From a virus, in the IMG/VR virus record IMGVR_UViG_3300032229_000774, positions 1-22,577 of that record: a stretch of 22,577 bases of DNA; one strand, 5' to 3'. The first letter of the stretch is position 1. Each line of letters opens with the position of its first letter. Both the position numbers and the translations under genes were made by a program. The notes under the pieces are model-generated. The model searched no databases, was not told where the DNA came from, and worked only from the letters and a program-made list of their open reading frames with translations. Below are positions 4,196 through 13,893 of this stretch, in pieces.

Positions 4196-4313
4196 CCTCT
4201 TCTTTTTTTGATTTTTCAGTTGTTTGTATTTTCTGTGATTCATATCTATAAAGTTGAGGCCAAGTATCACGAATGATCTCTGCAAGTTTATATGAAGTTT
4301 CTGATCCAATCAT
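4182..4313 (-). CDS. Small protein of unknown function (43 aa)
   Basis: The frame starts MIGSETSYKLAEIIRDTWPQ and ends TEKSKKEEDVHA. The ATG overlaps the TGA of the phosphoesterase gene as ATGA, so translation is probably coupled. Residues 5-30 could form an amphipathic helix, and the tail is highly charged (Lys/Glu). No family is recognised. This frame is preferred over the competing frame that also spans the region because of the ATGA junction and its plausible protein-like composition. Confidence 0.5.
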   Translation of the reverse strand: MIGSETSYKLAEIIRDTWPQLYRYESQKIQTTEKSKKEEDVHA

Positions 4314-5017
4314 TTATACTTTTCAAGAGAATACATTCCATTTTTCTCAACAATTGCAGAACATGTATCACACCAGTCACCACAGCACATATACAAAAGT
4401 TTATTGAAGTATCTGATGTTTCCATGATGAATGTGTCCACAAATCACACCATCATATTTCTTATCTCTCTGCACACAGTATGATGCAATATCAGTCTCGT
4501 ATTGGTTGATGTATCTTTTTCCACGAATTGTATTCTTTAGTGCATAGACCAAAGAGAATCTGAAGAATTTTTCTAGAACTAAACTTAATGGTGTAATAAA
4601 TTCATATCCTTTATTGAACACCAACTGCTTCCAAGACCCAGAAGAATACTCCGAATACTTATCCCCATGAATACACAAAAACTTATTGCCTTTTGAATCT
4701 TTGTGTGTATATTCTTCTACCATTCTAAAGTTCTTATGTTCGAAATCACAATAACGACGAATCTGCCCTTCGTGATTTCCTAGAATATAAATGACTTCTG
4801 TTCCTTTCTTTGCCAGGTTTAGAATTTGATGAACACACTCTGTGTGTTCTTTTTTCCAGTGAGTATTATATTTTTCCATGCAAGCGATGTCAATAATATC
4901 TCCTACCATTACTAACTTTTTTGTTTTGAGTTCTTTAATAAACTTCAAAAACTTTTGGGTATTACATCGGTTCGTTCCCAAATGAACATCAGAAATAAAA
5001 ACTGTATCGTAAGACAT
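4310..5017 (-). CDS. Calcineurin-like metallophosphoesterase, LpxH-like (235 aa)
   Basis: All signature motifs of the two-metal phosphoesterase fold are present in order: DVHLG (D10, H12), GDIID (D40), GNHE (N81, H82), IHGD (H118) and GHIHHG (H195, H197). The order and the 235-residue length resemble the LpxH/YbbF group, which hydrolyses UDP-2,3-diacylglucosamine in lipid A synthesis. Related phage enzymes can also act on other phosphoesters, so the substrate is not assigned. Two in-frame starts exist. The ATG at 5017 (MSYDTVFISD) is chosen over the TTG six bases earlier because it places the first beta strand right at the N-terminus. No clear ribosome binding site precedes either. The stop is coupled to the 43-residue gene. 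Confidence 0.88.
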   Translation of the reverse strand: MSYDTVFISDVHLGTNRCNTQKFLKFIKELKTKKLVMVGDIIDIACMEKYNTHWKKEHTECVHQILNLAKKGTEVIYILGNHEGQIRRYCDFEHKNFRMVEEYTHKDSKGNKFLCIHGDKYSEYSSGSWKQLVFNKGYEFITPLSLVLEKFFRFSLVYALKNTIRGKRYINQYETDIASYCVQRDKKYDGVICGHIHHGNIRYFNKLLYMCCGDWCDTCSAIVEKNGMYSLEKYK

Positions 5018-5032
5018 AATCAAGTGTTTATT

Positions 5033-6717: not shown

Positions 6718-6732
6718 TATTTATACATTATA
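6718..6732 (-). promoter_or_regulatory. Promoter of the endonuclease VII-like gene: TATAAT and TATAAATA
   Basis: The minus strand has a perfect -10 box TATAAT (6732-6727) followed two bases later by a perfect late octamer TATAAATA (6725-6718). The hexamer 17 bases upstream of TATAAT is TTCGGG, inside the psbA terminator loop, a poor -35. The late element is the stronger call. Confidence 0.65.
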
Positions 6733-6736
6733 GCAC

Positions 6737-6764
6737 AAAAAAAAGACCCCCCGAAGGAGGTCTT
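6737..6764 (-). terminator. Rho-independent terminator after psbA
   Basis: On the minus strand AAGACCTCC pairs with GGGGGTCTT around a TTCG loop (one U-G pair), followed by a T-run. It lies 18 bases past the psbA stop. The wobble pairs only on this strand, confirming the direction. Confidence 0.92.
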
Positions 6765-7862: not shown

Positions 7863-8030
7863 TTTTCGTTAAAAGGGTAAGTAAAAGTCCAGGGGGTACT
7901 GGATGATACATTATTCCCCACACCACCCTCCAGTGTGGGTATGAGAGACTGTGTTTAACCTCCCCATAGGTCTCGGTTAGGTAGAGGAACTTTGTTACGA
8001 ATTATGAGTATTTCGTAACATTTGTTTACC
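7863..8030 (-). promoter_or_regulatory. psbA 5' untranslated leader with two hairpins
   Basis: Nearly 170 bases separate the psbA promoter from the ATG, unusually long for this compact genome. A 9-bp inverted repeat (TGTTACGAA 8020-8012 with TTCGTAACA 8001-7993, 10-base loop) lies near the 5' end. A 7-bp stem (CCCACAC 7939-7933 with GTGTGGG 7923-7917) lies mid-leader. A GGGGAGG motif (7965-7959) has no ATG at a usable distance downstream. An 18-codon frame, MGRLNTVSHTHTGGWCGE (7967-7911), starts just ahead of it. A regulatory role is inferred from length and structure. Confidence 0.5.
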
Positions 8031-10339: not shown

Positions 10340-10347
10340 TATTTATT
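10340..10347 (-). promoter_or_regulatory. Late promoter octamer AATAAATA before the propeller-repeat fibre gene
   Basis: The minus strand reads AATAAATA 18 bases upstream of the fibre ATG, overlapping the TAA stop of the 54-residue gene. This leaves an mRNA leader of only about ten bases if the spacing is T4-like. Confidence 0.65.
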
Positions 10348-10510
10348 AGACTCTATACTCTTCTATTTTGTCTAAAACTCTATTGAGATATTGATGCGCC
10401 AACCATTTTGGATCATGTCCAGATTTGTCCATCCACTCCCTATCCAATTCTTTTTTAATTTTAAGAACTTCACATTTTATAATATCCTTAGTTAATTGTC
10501 CGCGTGGCAT
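10346..10510 (-). CDS. Small conserved-looking phage protein (54 aa)
   Basis: The frame starts MPRGQLTKDIIKCEVLKIKK and ends KIEEYRV. It is strongly charged and appears mostly helical, with DREWMDKSGHDPKWLAHQYL in the centre. Short proteins of this style are familiar from T4-like cyanophages, but I know of no assigned function. It starts just after the peroxiredoxin terminator T-run and ends inside the late octamer of the fibre gene. No good ribosome binding site is present and no -35 or -10 pair is clear, so it may depend on read-through past the terminator. Confidence 0.65.
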   Translation of the reverse strand: MPRGQLTKDIIKCEVLKIKKELDREWMDKSGHDPKWLAHQYLNRVLDKIEEYRV

Positions 10511-10515
10511 ACAAT

Positions 10516-10548
10516 AAAAAAACTCTGCCCTTTATTTAGAGCAGAGTT
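10516..10548 (-). terminator. Rho-independent terminator after the peroxiredoxin operon
   Basis: On the minus strand AACTCTGC (10548-10541) pairs with GCAGAGTT (10528-10521) around a 12-base loop, followed by seven T. It lies 20 bases past the peroxiredoxin stop. Confidence 0.88.
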
Positions 10549-10568
10549 GAATGTTATGGAGAATTATA

Positions 10569-11096
10569 TCAAATTGTAGCGCCAACTTTTACATTTGCTG
10601 ACACATATTCAAACACTGCTTCTGGAGTGCTTGCCTCATAAGGATCAGAGTCAGCATTATCGCGTTGTTCTGCTTCAATAAACAATTTCTCAATGATTCC
10701 GTTATTTACCACAGCAGCGTAACGCCAACTGCGCTCACCGAAGCCAAGGTTTGTTTTGCTAACAAGCATACCCATTGAACGGGTAAAATATGCATTTCCA
10801 TCGGGGATAAGTTTTACTTTTTCGATATTTTGATCTTGTGCCCAGGCGTTCATTACAAACCCATCATTAACAGAGATGCAGTAAATATCGTCGATGCCGA
10901 GACCCAAAAAGTCGTCATATTTCTCTTCGAATCCAGGTAACTGATAGGCACTGCAAGTAGGAGTGAAAGCACCAGGCAGACTAAAAATGACCACACGCTT
11001 CCCATCAAAAAGTTCCGAAGTTGTACGAGTTACAAACTCACCATTCTCACGAAATTGAAACTGAACTTCGGGAATAGTATAACCTTCACTACGCAT
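10569..11096 (-). CDS. Type II peroxiredoxin (AhpC/TSA superfamily, Prx5-like)
   Basis: The start is ATG 11096 (MRSEGYTIPEVQF), six bases after a GGAGG site. A longer frame to 11186 only reads through the hli gene in another frame. The 175-residue protein has the peroxidatic motif PGAFTPTC (C48), the type II landmark LPGFEEKYDDFLGLGID, and a second Cys 25 residues later (C73), where type II peroxiredoxins carry their resolving Cys. The conserved Arg is in GERSWRY. It would reduce hydrogen peroxide or alkyl peroxides using glutaredoxin or thioredoxin of the host. It is the last gene of the hli operon, so its likely role is to limit oxidative damage to the photosynthetic apparatus during infection. 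Confidence 0.93.
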   Translation of the reverse strand: MRSEGYTIPEVQFQFRENGEFVTRTTSELFDGKRVVIFSLPGAFTPTCSAYQLPGFEEKYDDFLGLGIDDIYCISVNDGFVMNAWAQDQNIEKVKLIPDGNAYFTRSMGMLVSKTNLGFGERSWRYAAVVNNGIIEKLFIEAEQRDNADSDPYEASTPEAVFEYVSANVKVGATI

Positions 11097-11107
11097 TTTA
11101 ACCTCCA

Positions 11108-11227
11108 TCAAAATACACCAGGAATAATTTGACCAGTAACCAGATAAGAACCAATAGCAGCAACGATACCAATCATTGCAAACCAACCATTAATACGTTC
11201 TGCTTTTTCAGTAAAAATTTTGTCCAT
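11108..11227 (-). CDS. hli: High-light-inducible protein (39 aa)
   Basis: This short chlorophyll-binding protein (MDKIFTEKAERINGWFAMIG) has the LHC-type motif E10-x2-N13-G14-x2-A17-M18-x-G20 and a single transmembrane helix ending TGQIIPGVF, typical of phage Hli proteins. Hli proteins bind chlorophyll and carotenoid at photosystem II and quench excess energy. The ATG follows AGGAG by seven bases and shares one base with the stop of the 53-residue gene (TAATG). The peroxiredoxin gene starts 11 bases past its stop. It lacks the N-terminal stretch of the other hli in the same operon. Confidence 0.95.
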   Translation of the reverse strand: MDKIFTEKAERINGWFAMIGIVAAIGSYLVTGQIIPGVF

Positions 11228-11388
11228 TAGTTTTCTCCTCTTTTAGTAATGTTTTGAATAACTATAAATTTATCCTTTGGAAGAGTACCTGCTACACAAA
11301 CTTTAAGTTCGTCTTCATTAGACCAGGCACCACTTTCTACAAGTTCTTGAAGGGCAAGAGAGAGTTGCCCAAGCATATTAGCACTCAT
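11227..11388 (-). CDS. Small protein between two hli genes, unknown function (53 aa)
   Basis: The frame starts MSANMLGQLSLALQELVESG and continues AWSNEDELKVCVAGTLPKDK before ending ITKRGEN. It looks soluble: an amphipathic helix over about residues 4-19, then a beta-like stretch FIVIQNI. It has one Cys. Its start shares one base with the preceding stop and its own stop shares one base with the hli start, so it is locked into the operon. I do not recognise the family. Co-translation with hli proteins suggests a role in photosystem protection or stress, by context only. Confidence 0.7.
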   Translation of the reverse strand: MSANMLGQLSLALQELVESGAWSNEDELKVCVAGTLPKDKFIVIQNITKRGEN

Positions 11389-11474
11389 TAATAAGTTTCT
11401 GCGACTTTCTCAACAGCATAACCCAAAAGCACAAAAAATGCAACTGAGATAATGGTAAAAATTGTTTCAGTCAT
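11388..11474 (-). CDS. Single-helix membrane microprotein (28 aa)
   Basis: The frame starts MTETIFTIISVAFFVLLGYA and ends VEKVAETY. It has one clear hydrophobic segment (about residues 5-20) flanked by an acidic N-terminus and a mixed-charge tail, the look of a very small thylakoid or photosystem subunit. It does not match any Psb or Pet subunit that I can name with confidence. It overlaps the upstream hli stop (TGATG) and the downstream start (TAATG), which strongly supports real translation. Association with Hli or photosystem II is inferred from context. Confidence 0.7.
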   Translation of the reverse strand: MTETIFTIISVAFFVLLGYAVEKVAETY

Positions 11475-11668
11475 CAGAAGATTCCGAAGAAGAGTTTACC
11501 AGTGCTAACATAAGAAATAATACCAGCAATAAACCCGACCATAGCCCAGCGTCCATTTGTGCGCTCCTTGACTTCATTAGGAGTTAACATTCCATAATTC
11601 TCATAATACATTGCGGGTTCTTTTGCCCACATGTTTTGTTGTCCGTGTTCGTTAGTTGTTACAGTCAT
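11474..11668 (-). CDS. hli: High-light-inducible protein (64 aa)
   Basis: The start chosen is ATG 11668 (MTVTTNEHGQQNMWAKEPAM), because the longer frame to 11707 would begin in the promoter. The motif E35-R-T-N38-G39-R-W-A42-M43-x-G45 and the following helix (FIAGIISYVSTG) identify a one-helix chlorophyll a/b-binding-like Hli. The 35-residue N-terminal part contains the YENYGMLTPNEVKERTNGR form usual in marine cyanobacteria and their phages. It is first in the stress operon, directly behind a sigma-70 promoter. No good ribosome binding site is visible. Confidence 0.95.
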   Translation of the reverse strand: MTVTTNEHGQQNMWAKEPAMYYENYGMLTPNEVKERTNGRWAMVGFIAGIISYVSTGKLFFGIF

Positions 11669-11695
11669 TGTAAATTCATTAAGAATTGTTACAAC

Positions 11696-11724
11696 AGTAT
11701 ATAGCAAAAATAAAGGGGCGTCAA
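11696..11724 (-). promoter_or_regulatory. Sigma-70 promoter of the hli-peroxiredoxin operon
   Basis: On the minus strand TTGACG (11724-11719) and TATACT (11701-11696) are 17 bases apart, near consensus. The -35 box is formed by the loop and first stem base of the preceding terminator. No late octamer is attached, unlike psbA and psbD, so expression is probably early. Confidence 0.75.
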
Positions 11725-11735
11725 GCCCCTTTATT
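11706..11735 (-). terminator. Rho-independent terminator of the glycan gene cluster
   Basis: On the minus strand AATAAAGGGGC (11735-11725) pairs over 11 bp with GCCCCTTTATT (11719-11709) around the loop TTGAC, then T-rich sequence. It starts 4 bases past the stop of the last glycan gene. Confidence 0.9.
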
Positions 11736-11738
11736 GAA

Positions 11739-12569
11739 TTATTCAGTTTTGGTTTCTTGATTTTGCTGCTGTTCCCTCATTATACTCTCTGTTTCTGGAG
11801 GAAGAGTTCCATAATATGGATCATATTCAAATACCGAATCCCAACTTTCGATAGTATTTGAAGTATTCCTCCAAAAATTCCAAAGTCCATCATAACTTGT
11901 TTGATGAAATGCTGAAATATGCTCACCATGAATTGAAGATCCCAATTCAATTTTATACATGAACAAAGGAACTGCAAAGGTATTCCCAGAATTATAAATC
12001 AAATCATCAGCAACAGCACGAGGTTTGACTCCATTATCCAACTTATATTTTCCATCACGTTCATGAAGTGCTAAGAGTTTTGTTGCATGATGTCTAGTAA
12101 TCATATAACATGCAGTAGAAAAATCATTTACAAATCTCTTGTGCATTCGAATAGAGATTTGAATAGGATTAATAATAGCAAGTTGGACAACATCATAATC
12201 ATAAGGAACTTTTGAATAAAAATCCCTCCAGGTAAATTGCCAGTGCTTAACTGTATCAAGATCACAATCATCTTCCATCATGATTGCACATGGAGAATCA
12301 GATGTCTCTAACCAGTGCTTCATTGCTTTAAGGTGAGAAGTTACACAACCCACTTCACCAGAAGTCATCATATCAGGATACTTTCCTTTCAAGATGTCAC
12401 TTAGATCATCTTGTCTGCCATCATATGCAGAAATACGAGTATAATTTTCAATTTCCCAATACTTGAATTGATTTTCCATATACTCTGCCCTTTCCGGTTG
12501 CCCATCAAGGTTCAGATAATAAATTGGGGGAAGTCCGTTTAATTTATGTAATGATTTATTTTTGTCCAT
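11739..12569 (-). CDS. Glycosyltransferase family 25-like protein (276 aa)
   Basis: The start is ATG 12569 (MDKNKSLHKLNGLPPIYYLN), just past the aminotransferase-like stop; a longer frame extends into that gene and is rejected. Family marks are the opening strand IYYLNLDGQPERAEYM, the block SGEVGCVTSHLKAMKHWL and the acidic IMMEDDCDL, where GT25 enzymes hold the metal-sugar nucleotide. GT25 includes LPS beta-galactosyltransferases such as LgtB and collagen galactosyltransferases. The C-terminal end is rich in Gln/Glu. It is the last gene of the long glycan cluster, right before the terminator. Donor and acceptor are not predictable. Confidence 0.85.
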   Translation of the reverse strand: MDKNKSLHKLNGLPPIYYLNLDGQPERAEYMENQFKYWEIENYTRISAYDGRQDDLSDILKGKYPDMMTSGEVGCVTSHLKAMKHWLETSDSPCAIMMEDDCDLDTVKHWQFTWRDFYSKVPYDYDVVQLAIINPIQISIRMHKRFVNDFSTACYMITRHHATKLLALHERDGKYKLDNGVKPRAVADDLIYNSGNTFAVPLFMYKIELGSSIHGEHISAFHQTSYDGLWNFWRNTSNTIESWDSVFEYDPYYGTLPPETESIMREQQQNQETKTE

Positions 12570-12573
12570 GATT

Positions 12574-13893
12574 TTATACTGGGTGATAATGAATGTGGTT
12601 AGTGCGATATTCTTCAACTACTTCTGCAATGTAATCGATCATTTCATCTGTAATCACAGGGGAACAACCAACAAAGAAAACATTGTCAAGAACTTTACAT
12701 GCATTTGGATAATTACGAGCATCTTCTAAATGCTTGTATGCAGGATGCATTAAAATATTTCCTGCAAAATAATTACGAGTTTGAACTTTGTGATTTTCAA
12801 GCCATTTGACTAAACTTGATTTCTCATACTCACAAACAATTGGTACACCAAACCAACTTGTTTCTGCTTCAGGTCTTTCATCAATCACTCTAGTGAAAGG
12901 AAGAGTTTCAAAAATCTTTTGAAGACGTTCTTTATTATGGCGGCGTTTCTGGTGAATTTCCTCAGTTTTAGTTAACTGAACTTGACCAATTGCACCCTGA
13001 AGATCTGCTGGTTTAAGATTATATCCAATATTACCAAAAACGTATTTGTGATCTACAATTTCATTGTATCCTTCAAGCCAATAATCAAATCTTTTTCCAC
13101 ACACACCACACTCTAAAAGATTTTGTGATCCTACACAATAACAATCACGACCCCACCAGGCAAAAGAACGAGCAATATCTACAATCTCTTTAATGTTGGA
13201 AGAAACCATCCCACCTTCAATTGTGGAAATATGGTGTGCAGGATAAAAAGAGCAAGATGCAGCAACTGCATGTTTGGTCAAATATTCATCCCGCCACTTG
13301 GATCCAAGACTGTCGCAATTGTCAGAAATAAGTTTGATATTGTACCGATGACAAATATCAAGAAGTTTGTCATAGTCATAAGGATTTCCAAGAACTGGTG
13401 ATGAAAATACTGCTCTAGTTCTTGTTGTGATTTTTGATTGTATTTGATCCAAATCCCAATTAAGATCAGAATAATCAATATCGACAAAAACTGGTTTGAG
13501 ATTATTTTGAATAATTGGATTAATCGTTGTCGGAAACCCGCATACACAAACAATAATTTCATCACCATCTTTCCATTCAAAATACTTCTTAAGAGCAGCA
13601 ATCATTACGAGATTAGCAGAACTGCCAGAATTTACCATCACAGAATGACCAAATCCAAACTGTTTTGAAAATTGACGTTCAAACTTATTAACTTCCTCAC
13701 CAGAAGGAAGCCATTTTCCACTCAAAAGAGTTGTAATTGCTGCTGCGACTTCTCTCTCATCCCAATAGGGTCCAGAGTAATAAACATTACTTTTACCCTT
13801 TTCATAATAATTATTACAAATATAAGGAAAAAGTTTTTCACCTTTGTCCTGCAAATTTTTGATAAATGATGAAACTTCGTTTTCTACCGACAT
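12574..13893 (-). CDS. RfbH/E1-like PLP [2Fe-2S] sugar-nucleotide 3-dehydratase (439 aa)
   Basis: This is a DegT/DnrJ/EryC1/StrS-fold PLP protein. Where aminotransferases carry the Lys that binds PLP, it has SFYPAHHI (H220, H221), the hallmark of CDP-4-keto-6-deoxyglucose 3-dehydrase E1 (RfbH/DdhC). PLP-pocket residues include NSGSSAN (88-94) and D191. C193 in DNCDSLGS, then C251 and C253 (GRDCYC), and C262 and C265 (ECGVCGKRF) correspond to the Cys ligands of the E1 [2Fe-2S] cluster, although the last spacing is longer here. E1 enzymes remove the C3 hydroxyl during 3,6-dideoxyhexose synthesis and need an E3 reductase, which is not seen in this window. Length and the GYNLKPADLQGAIG block also fit RfbH. 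It overlaps the downstream frame of the reductase gene by 10 bases. Confidence 0.85.
   Translation of the reverse strand: MSVENEVSSFIKNLQDKGEKLFPYICNNYYEKGKSNVYYSGPYWDEREVAAAITTLLSGKWLPSGEEVNKFERQFSKQFGFGHSVMVNSGSSANLVMIAALKKYFEWKDGDEIIVCVCGFPTTINPIIQNNLKPVFVDIDYSDLNWDLDQIQSKITTRTRAVFSSPVLGNPYDYDKLLDICHRYNIKLISDNCDSLGSKWRDEYLTKHAVAASCSFYPAHHISTIEGGMVSSNIKEIVDIARSFAWWGRDCYCVGSQNLLECGVCGKRFDYWLEGYNEIVDHKYVFGNIGYNLKPADLQGAIGQVQLTKTEEIHQKRRHNKERLQKIFETLPFTRVIDERPEAETSWFGVPIVCEYEKSSLVKWLENHKVQTRNYFAGNILMHPAYKHLEDARNYPNACKVLDNVFFVGCSPVITDEMIDYIAEVVEEYRTNHIHYHPV

Follow-up and report, generated by a model that had tools for sequence, protein, structure and literature searches.

A putative fused terminator and promoter upstream of hli in T4-like cyanomyoviruses

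Can one short sequence both close a transcription unit and open the next? The question is raised by the hli locus in a virus record from IMG/VR belonging to a T4-like cyanomyovirus (hereafter the window, i.e., the whole 22.6 kb stretch analysed, which carries psbA, psbD, hli and a glycan cluster). At this locus, the minus strand reads, in order, AATAAAGGGGC-TTGAC-GCCCCTTTATT-TTTGCTA-TATACT. The upstream gene, the last of the glycan cluster, is an ORF for a glucosyltransferase (11739..12617, minus strand; phrog_2835, E 2.5e-130), whose stop codon lies 4 bases ahead of a predicted intrinsic terminator hairpin (11709..11735, minus strand) with an 11-pair stem and the five-base loop TTGAC (11724-11720, minus strand). 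Together with the first base of the 3′ arm, this loop makes up a putative −35 box, TTGACG (11719..11724, minus strand), and the putative −10 box TATACT follows 17 bases further on (11696..11701, minus strand). The T-rich tract in between (11705..11714, minus strand) is both the tail of the terminator and a part of the promoter spacer. About 45 bases thus appear to serve both as terminator and as promoter, and the reading of loop and boxes (TTGACG-17-TATACT) given in a preliminary description of this DNA is confirmed on the minus strand.

The hairpin has a predicted RNA fold of −16.3 kcal/mol (z −4.2) and is followed by the T-rich tract, making it a strong intrinsic terminator by these criteria; terminator-like sites in the window exceed expectation (24 vs 10.9). 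The promoter matches the consensus at 10 of 12 positions with a spacer of exactly 17, a match that is not significant in the window alone, where 77 promoter-like sites compare with 81 in shuffles. The T4-type late promoter TATAAATA was not found at the hli −10, where the window has TATATACT and most relatives have TATATAAT. Two coincidences within the window are insufficient to conclude that there is a dual element; the significance of such an element comes from comparison with hli relatives, with 17 genomes and with IMG/VR hairpins collected blind to the −10. Elsewhere in the window, a perfect 12/12 sigma-70 match (TTGACA-17-TATAAT, 4893-4865, minus strand) lies inside a 237-aa ORF (4310-5023).

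The first gene of the downstream operon encodes a high light inducible protein (hli, 11474..11668, minus strand; phrog_178, E 1.6e-27) and is annotated in relatives as hli03 or high light inducible protein. The rest of the operon (10346..11388, minus strand), delineated from ORFs, terminator calls and phrog matches, comprises a small ORF (11227-11388), a second hli (11108-11227), a peroxiredoxin gene (about 10569-11120), a terminator (10548-10521) and a small phrog_566 ORF (10346-10510), all on the minus strand. A palindrome, AATTC-TTAAT-GAATT (11673..11687, minus strand), can be read directly from the sequence downstream of the promoter and ahead of the hli start codon; it may serve as an operator or as a hairpin of the leader, and its fold alone is weak (z −0.9). 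In relatives (loci L004-L083), the letters of this palindrome vary and are often still palindromic (TTCGT..ACGAA, TTGTAA..TTTACAA).

To follow the element at the same locus, we used 80 hli loci listed from IMG/VR and named genomes, corresponding to 67 distinct upstream regions. A recognisable promoter is present in 59 of these 67 regions, with a spacing of exactly 17 in 58/59 and TTGAC retained in 57/59; its −10 is TATAAT in 46 and TATACT in 9 (55/59 together). Among 57 distinct arm sets, 40 form a stem of at least 5 pairs with the −35 inside. The arms come in several variants (GGGGC/GCCCC, GGGGTG/CACCCC, GAGGGG/CCCCTC, GGGAGG/CCTCCC and GAGGGTCT/AGACCCTC), and each phage's own pair matches: the mean stem is 8.03, against a mean of 6.12 (maximum 6.93) after swapping arms between phages in 1000 permutations. 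When the stem is read with CTTGA as its loop, the second pair is T-A in 12 cases, G-C in 4, C-G in 2 and A-T in 2, i.e., paired in 20/20. Since the arms differ and yet pair within each phage, what is conserved is the structure of the stem and, in the loop, the sequence itself.

The remaining 17 of the 57 arm sets have no hairpin of 5 pairs; they include Syn1, in which a 7-pair stem with a 9-base loop was missed by the hairpin caller. A separate terminator lies within 260 bases in only 5 of these 17 sets, indicating that a terminator is not indispensable. The genes before the element are variable, 12 different upstream gene clusters preceding the same hli element in 45 loci; sugar-gene clusters near hli03 were noted earlier (PMC3037559). 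Taken at the level of sequence, these comparisons show that selection keeps both halves, the predicted terminator and the predicted promoter, ahead of hli. Another hli lineage (L008, L010 and L046) has a GC hairpin, GGGGGGC-CACAA-GCCCCCC or similar, 60-100 bases upstream, followed by TATGATATGAT, which replaces the TTGAC element.

The same relatives show that the putative terminator and the putative promoter are two separable functions. At hli, the promoter occurs without any hairpin in Syn9, Syn33, S-ShM2, P-HM1, L044 and L053, and the terminator stands apart from the promoter in L014, L080, ACG-2014b, ACG-2014g and S-SSM5. The hairpin is retained in L051 and L058 with the −35 decayed to TTGCG, and in L047 the promoter is retained, its 5′ arm having been lost to the upstream reading frame. 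A T-rich tract is present in the spacer of 40/41 hairpin-bearing hli promoters vs 3/16 hairpin-less ones (p 3e-9); the tract goes with the hairpin, as expected if the hairpin serves as a terminator.

Is the element restricted to hli? We called 356 strong terminators in 17 cyanomyovirus genomes. TTGAC overlaps the loop in 28 of them and is the second commonest 5-mer, behind only the UUCG type; in the same genomes, the reverse complement of TTGAC was found 2 times and its other letter permutations 2.3 times on average. In 23/28 cases, TTGAC is followed at a distance of 16-17 bases by a −10 (at least 4/6), vs 18-29% at the matching register of other terminators (p 3e-8 to 4e-12, values that are optimistic because the genome counts are not phylogenetically independent). 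In the other 5/28 cases no −10 reaches 4/6 at this distance; in some other genome cases a late-type ATAAAT or CATACT follows the TTGAC hairpin. Among terminators of the 17 genomes lacking TTGAC, a second −10-like peak was observed about five bases further on, which may correspond to late promoters directly after terminators.

The members of this class lie at varied sites, often preceded by a structural or photosynthesis gene and followed by one that is small or belongs to nucleotide metabolism. Elements were located between gp23 and small genes (P-RSM4), between DUF680 and nrdC (P-HM1 and P-SSM7), between psbD and a small gene plus nrdC (Syn1), and, in S-SKS1, both between psbD and an endonuclease gene and between a baseplate wedge gene and psbA. 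Others precede endonuclease-dam (Syn33), a helicase gene (S-SSM5) or purL (ACG-2014b), and two lead into hli, from phoA plus small genes in S-SM2 and from a small gene after an S-layer-like gene in S-PM2.

The test of the −10 in IMG/VR is based on scans for bare hairpins without selection on the −10; a separate scan with a pattern requiring TATAAT is biased toward the hypothesis and was kept out of this test. Among the matches listed for GGGGCTTGACGCCCC, 52/107 contexts have a −10 that agrees with the consensus in at least 5/6 positions at a spacing of 16/17, as do 49/71 of those with a T-rich tail; the corresponding figures were 26/38 for the listed GGGTGCTTGACACCC matches outside the TATAAT-selected scan and 18/104 for the listed matches of the UUCG hairpin GGGTGCTTCGGCACCC. 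Restricting the listed matches to non-hli contexts with a T-rich tail gave 31/50 and 23/29 for the TTGAC hairpins vs 16/75 for UUCG (p 5e-6 and 1e-7). For the non-hli GGGGCTTGACGCCCC matches listed, the −10 peaks sharply at spacing 17 (26 sites); within the range 10 to 25, no other spacing has more than 5. The association of the TTGAC loop with a −10 downstream, for which a comparative search had been proposed, thus emerges from both the genomes and IMG/VR. When the TATAAT-selected scan is included, the combined set comprises 172 listed elements with a −10; a same-strand ORF ends at the hairpin in 136 of them, and an ORF starts downstream in 148. The non-hli downstream proteins form at least 52 crude clusters and include ThyX, glutaredoxin, transaldolase, DNA polymerase and restriction endonuclease.

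Host origin, a general T4-like trait and chance were each considered for this pattern. Host origin was rejected because no TTGAC-loop terminator was found in the cyanobacterial DNA examined (0/257 terminators in 1.46 Mb of cyanobacterial loci and 0/40 in 0.4 Mb of Synechococcus WH7803); the strict fused pattern likewise had no match in the four whole genomes of the host-origin check. A general T4-like trait was rejected since there is no TTGAC loop among the terminators of T4, where loops of the UUCG type prevail, and since inspection of candidate sites in KVP40 and pelagiphage HTVC008M revealed no fused element. Chance was rejected by the genome, hli-relative and −10-blind comparisons.

The preliminary description had presented the hli site as a second fusion and had argued for selection of a dual element from two such terminators in the window. 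Selection is supported at hli and for the recurrent class; the site at 8072-8052 is not supported as an independent second case. This minus-strand terminator upstream of psbA does have the loop TTGAC and reads TTGACG-17-TATCAT, but no conserved −10 was found at 16-17 for the site (8072-8036): L084 and L159, which share the TTGAC hairpin, read TAATAT at the bases of the sigma-70 −10 and keep ATAAATA. A late-promoter-like motif is located after the terminator (8038-8031, minus strand), reading CATAAATA in the window and ATATAAATA in L084 and L159, three sequences only. The stretch 8072-8031 is therefore most likely a terminator plus a T4-type late promoter upstream of psbA, an assignment for which, from these three sequences only, the notion of a clean second fused case was set aside. 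The psbA terminator, with a UUCG loop (6764-6743 within the site 6730..6764, minus strand), had been regarded as a weaker version of the fused element. The letters TTCGGG-17-TATAAT are indeed present, followed by TATAAATA, and the loop lacks TTGAC; since a good −10 is not enriched at this position behind terminators with a UUCGG loop (2/32), this view is abandoned. The psbA leader also contains a PhotoRC-II RNA (Rfam RF01717, 75 bits; 7903-7997, minus strand), the only Rfam match above the gathering score in the window.

Several other readings of the hli element have to be weighed. The recurrence might reflect descent from one ancestral copy spread with hli rather than independent selection, given that hli is orthologous across these phages and that many contexts share TTTATTTTTGCTATATAAT; we consider this unlikely, because the downstream proteins fall into about 52 unrelated clusters, stems, spacers and leaders differ, and elements occur at sites such as gp23-small genes, psbD-endonuclease, DUF680-nrdC and before the helicase gene. 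On a promoter-only reading, an operator or another DNA feature would account for the inverted repeat that encloses the −35. Such a repeat could bind a dimeric regulator, and it is missing in 17/57 arm sets, but its stem, in contrast to a binding site, is free to vary provided that pairing is preserved; it is accompanied by the T-tract (40/41 vs 3/16), lies just past a same-strand stop codon in 136/172 listed elements, and gives way in some relatives to a terminator that stands apart, so that we hold this reading to be very unlikely.

Less probable still is a terminator only, in which the TTGAC loop would be favoured for RNA structure and the −10-like sequence would arise by chance in AT-rich DNA. 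It is true that AT-rich sequence yields many −10-like matches, that TTGAC loops also precede other signals, e.g., late promoters, and that some TTGAC hairpins in IMG/VR lack a −10. This reading is nevertheless already largely refuted at hli, where −35 and −10 remain 17 apart in hairpin-less relatives, and it also conflicts with the lack of TTGAC loops in T4 and host terminators and with a −10 that is much commoner after TTGAC loops than after others. The least probable of all is an attenuator or leader hairpin controlling read-through into hli from a promoter further upstream. A hairpin and U-tract before a gene do have the shape of an attenuator, but the 4 bases from stop codon to hairpin leave no space for a leader promoter outside the glucosyltransferase gene, a consensus −10 follows the hairpin at a fixed distance, the upstream genes vary between relatives, and the Rfam scan found no leader RNA family above the gathering score at the element.

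We thus favour a fused terminator and promoter at which transcription of the upstream operon very probably stops and that of the next one begins with the host sigma-70-type polymerase, activities that we infer from signals, geometry and conservation. Upon transcription of the glycan cluster, the RNA would fold into the hairpin and, with the U-rich tract coming next, the polymerase would stop. In the DNA, the loop and the first base of the 3′ arm would act as the −35, and the remaining 3′ arm and the T-tract as the 17-base spacer, allowing host RNA polymerase with SigA to initiate just past TATAAT/TATACT, shortly ahead of hli. The fused element would in this way shield hli from the changing upstream cargo with no extra bases spent. 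Cyanomyoviruses are without the T4 factors that retune the host polymerase, and sigma-70-like promoters are believed to drive their early genes, the published ones being themselves predictions (PMC2984593).

How does this element compare with known systems? Overlapping promoters and terminators exist singly elsewhere, and the promoters of coliphage N4 include hairpins that form in DNA, where the virion polymerase recognises them. As in N4, the putative hli promoter incorporates a stem-loop; unlike in N4, it would be of the ordinary double-stranded sigma-70 type, working without the hairpin judging by conservation. The element resembles Rho-independent terminators in its GC-rich stem, short loop, U-tract and position just past a stop codon, and differs in a loop constrained to TTGAC. 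In turn, it resembles the sigma-70/SigA-type early promoter of T4-like cyanophages (TTGAC(A/G), 17 bases, TATAAT), a motif known from S-PM2 and Syn9 (see the review PMC2984593) and enriched on one strand of cyanomyovirus genomes; unlike in an ordinary early promoter, its −35 and spacer are made from a terminator hairpin. The T4-type late promoter TATAAATA, with the S-PM2 form NATAAATA (PMC2984593), can likewise follow a terminator directly, as at 8038-8031 ahead of psbA, but is without a −35 and differs from the TATATACT/TATATAAT that follows the hli hairpin. In phages pf16 and phiPMW, bifunctional bidirectional terminators, two facing each other (PMC5587285), likewise give a short phage sequence a double role; unlike at hli, no promoter is described inside their loop (PMC5587285). 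We found no description of promoters in terminator loops in the open-access literature searched, and a supposed occurrence of such elements in PB1-like phages was not borne out by PMC3008698 and PMC3652863. A promoter-like site with an inverted repeat, TTGACACCCTGGACAGGGTGTGCTATAAT, inside the 17-base spacer was observed in Syn9 (DQ149023, 18628-18656), and a similar site in HTVC008M (97020).

The fusion could be regulatory as well as compact, a possibility that we regard as doubtful. A terminating polymerase would sit on the next −10, so upstream transcription might either occlude the downstream early promoter or hand the polymerase over to it. With occlusion, early units of the hli type would be turned down once the upstream operon is strongly read; with hand-over, the terminated polymerase would be passed on for re-initiation. 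If such regulation exists, many units of the genome would be coupled via one kind of element.

If the fused element is what it appears to be, one short recognisable sequence would mark both the ends and the starts of transcription units in abundant marine viruses, so that operon borders and early promoters could be read from sequence, metagenomic fragments included. A compact genome would meet the constraints of RNA structure and DNA recognition with a single sequence, and the element would provide a test bed for the coupling of termination and re-initiation. At hli, where upstream cargo such as sugar-transfer enzymes, a putative porin and a putative phosphate-binding protein keeps changing, a gene for photosynthesis protection would keep its own promoter beside the very site at which this cargo changes.
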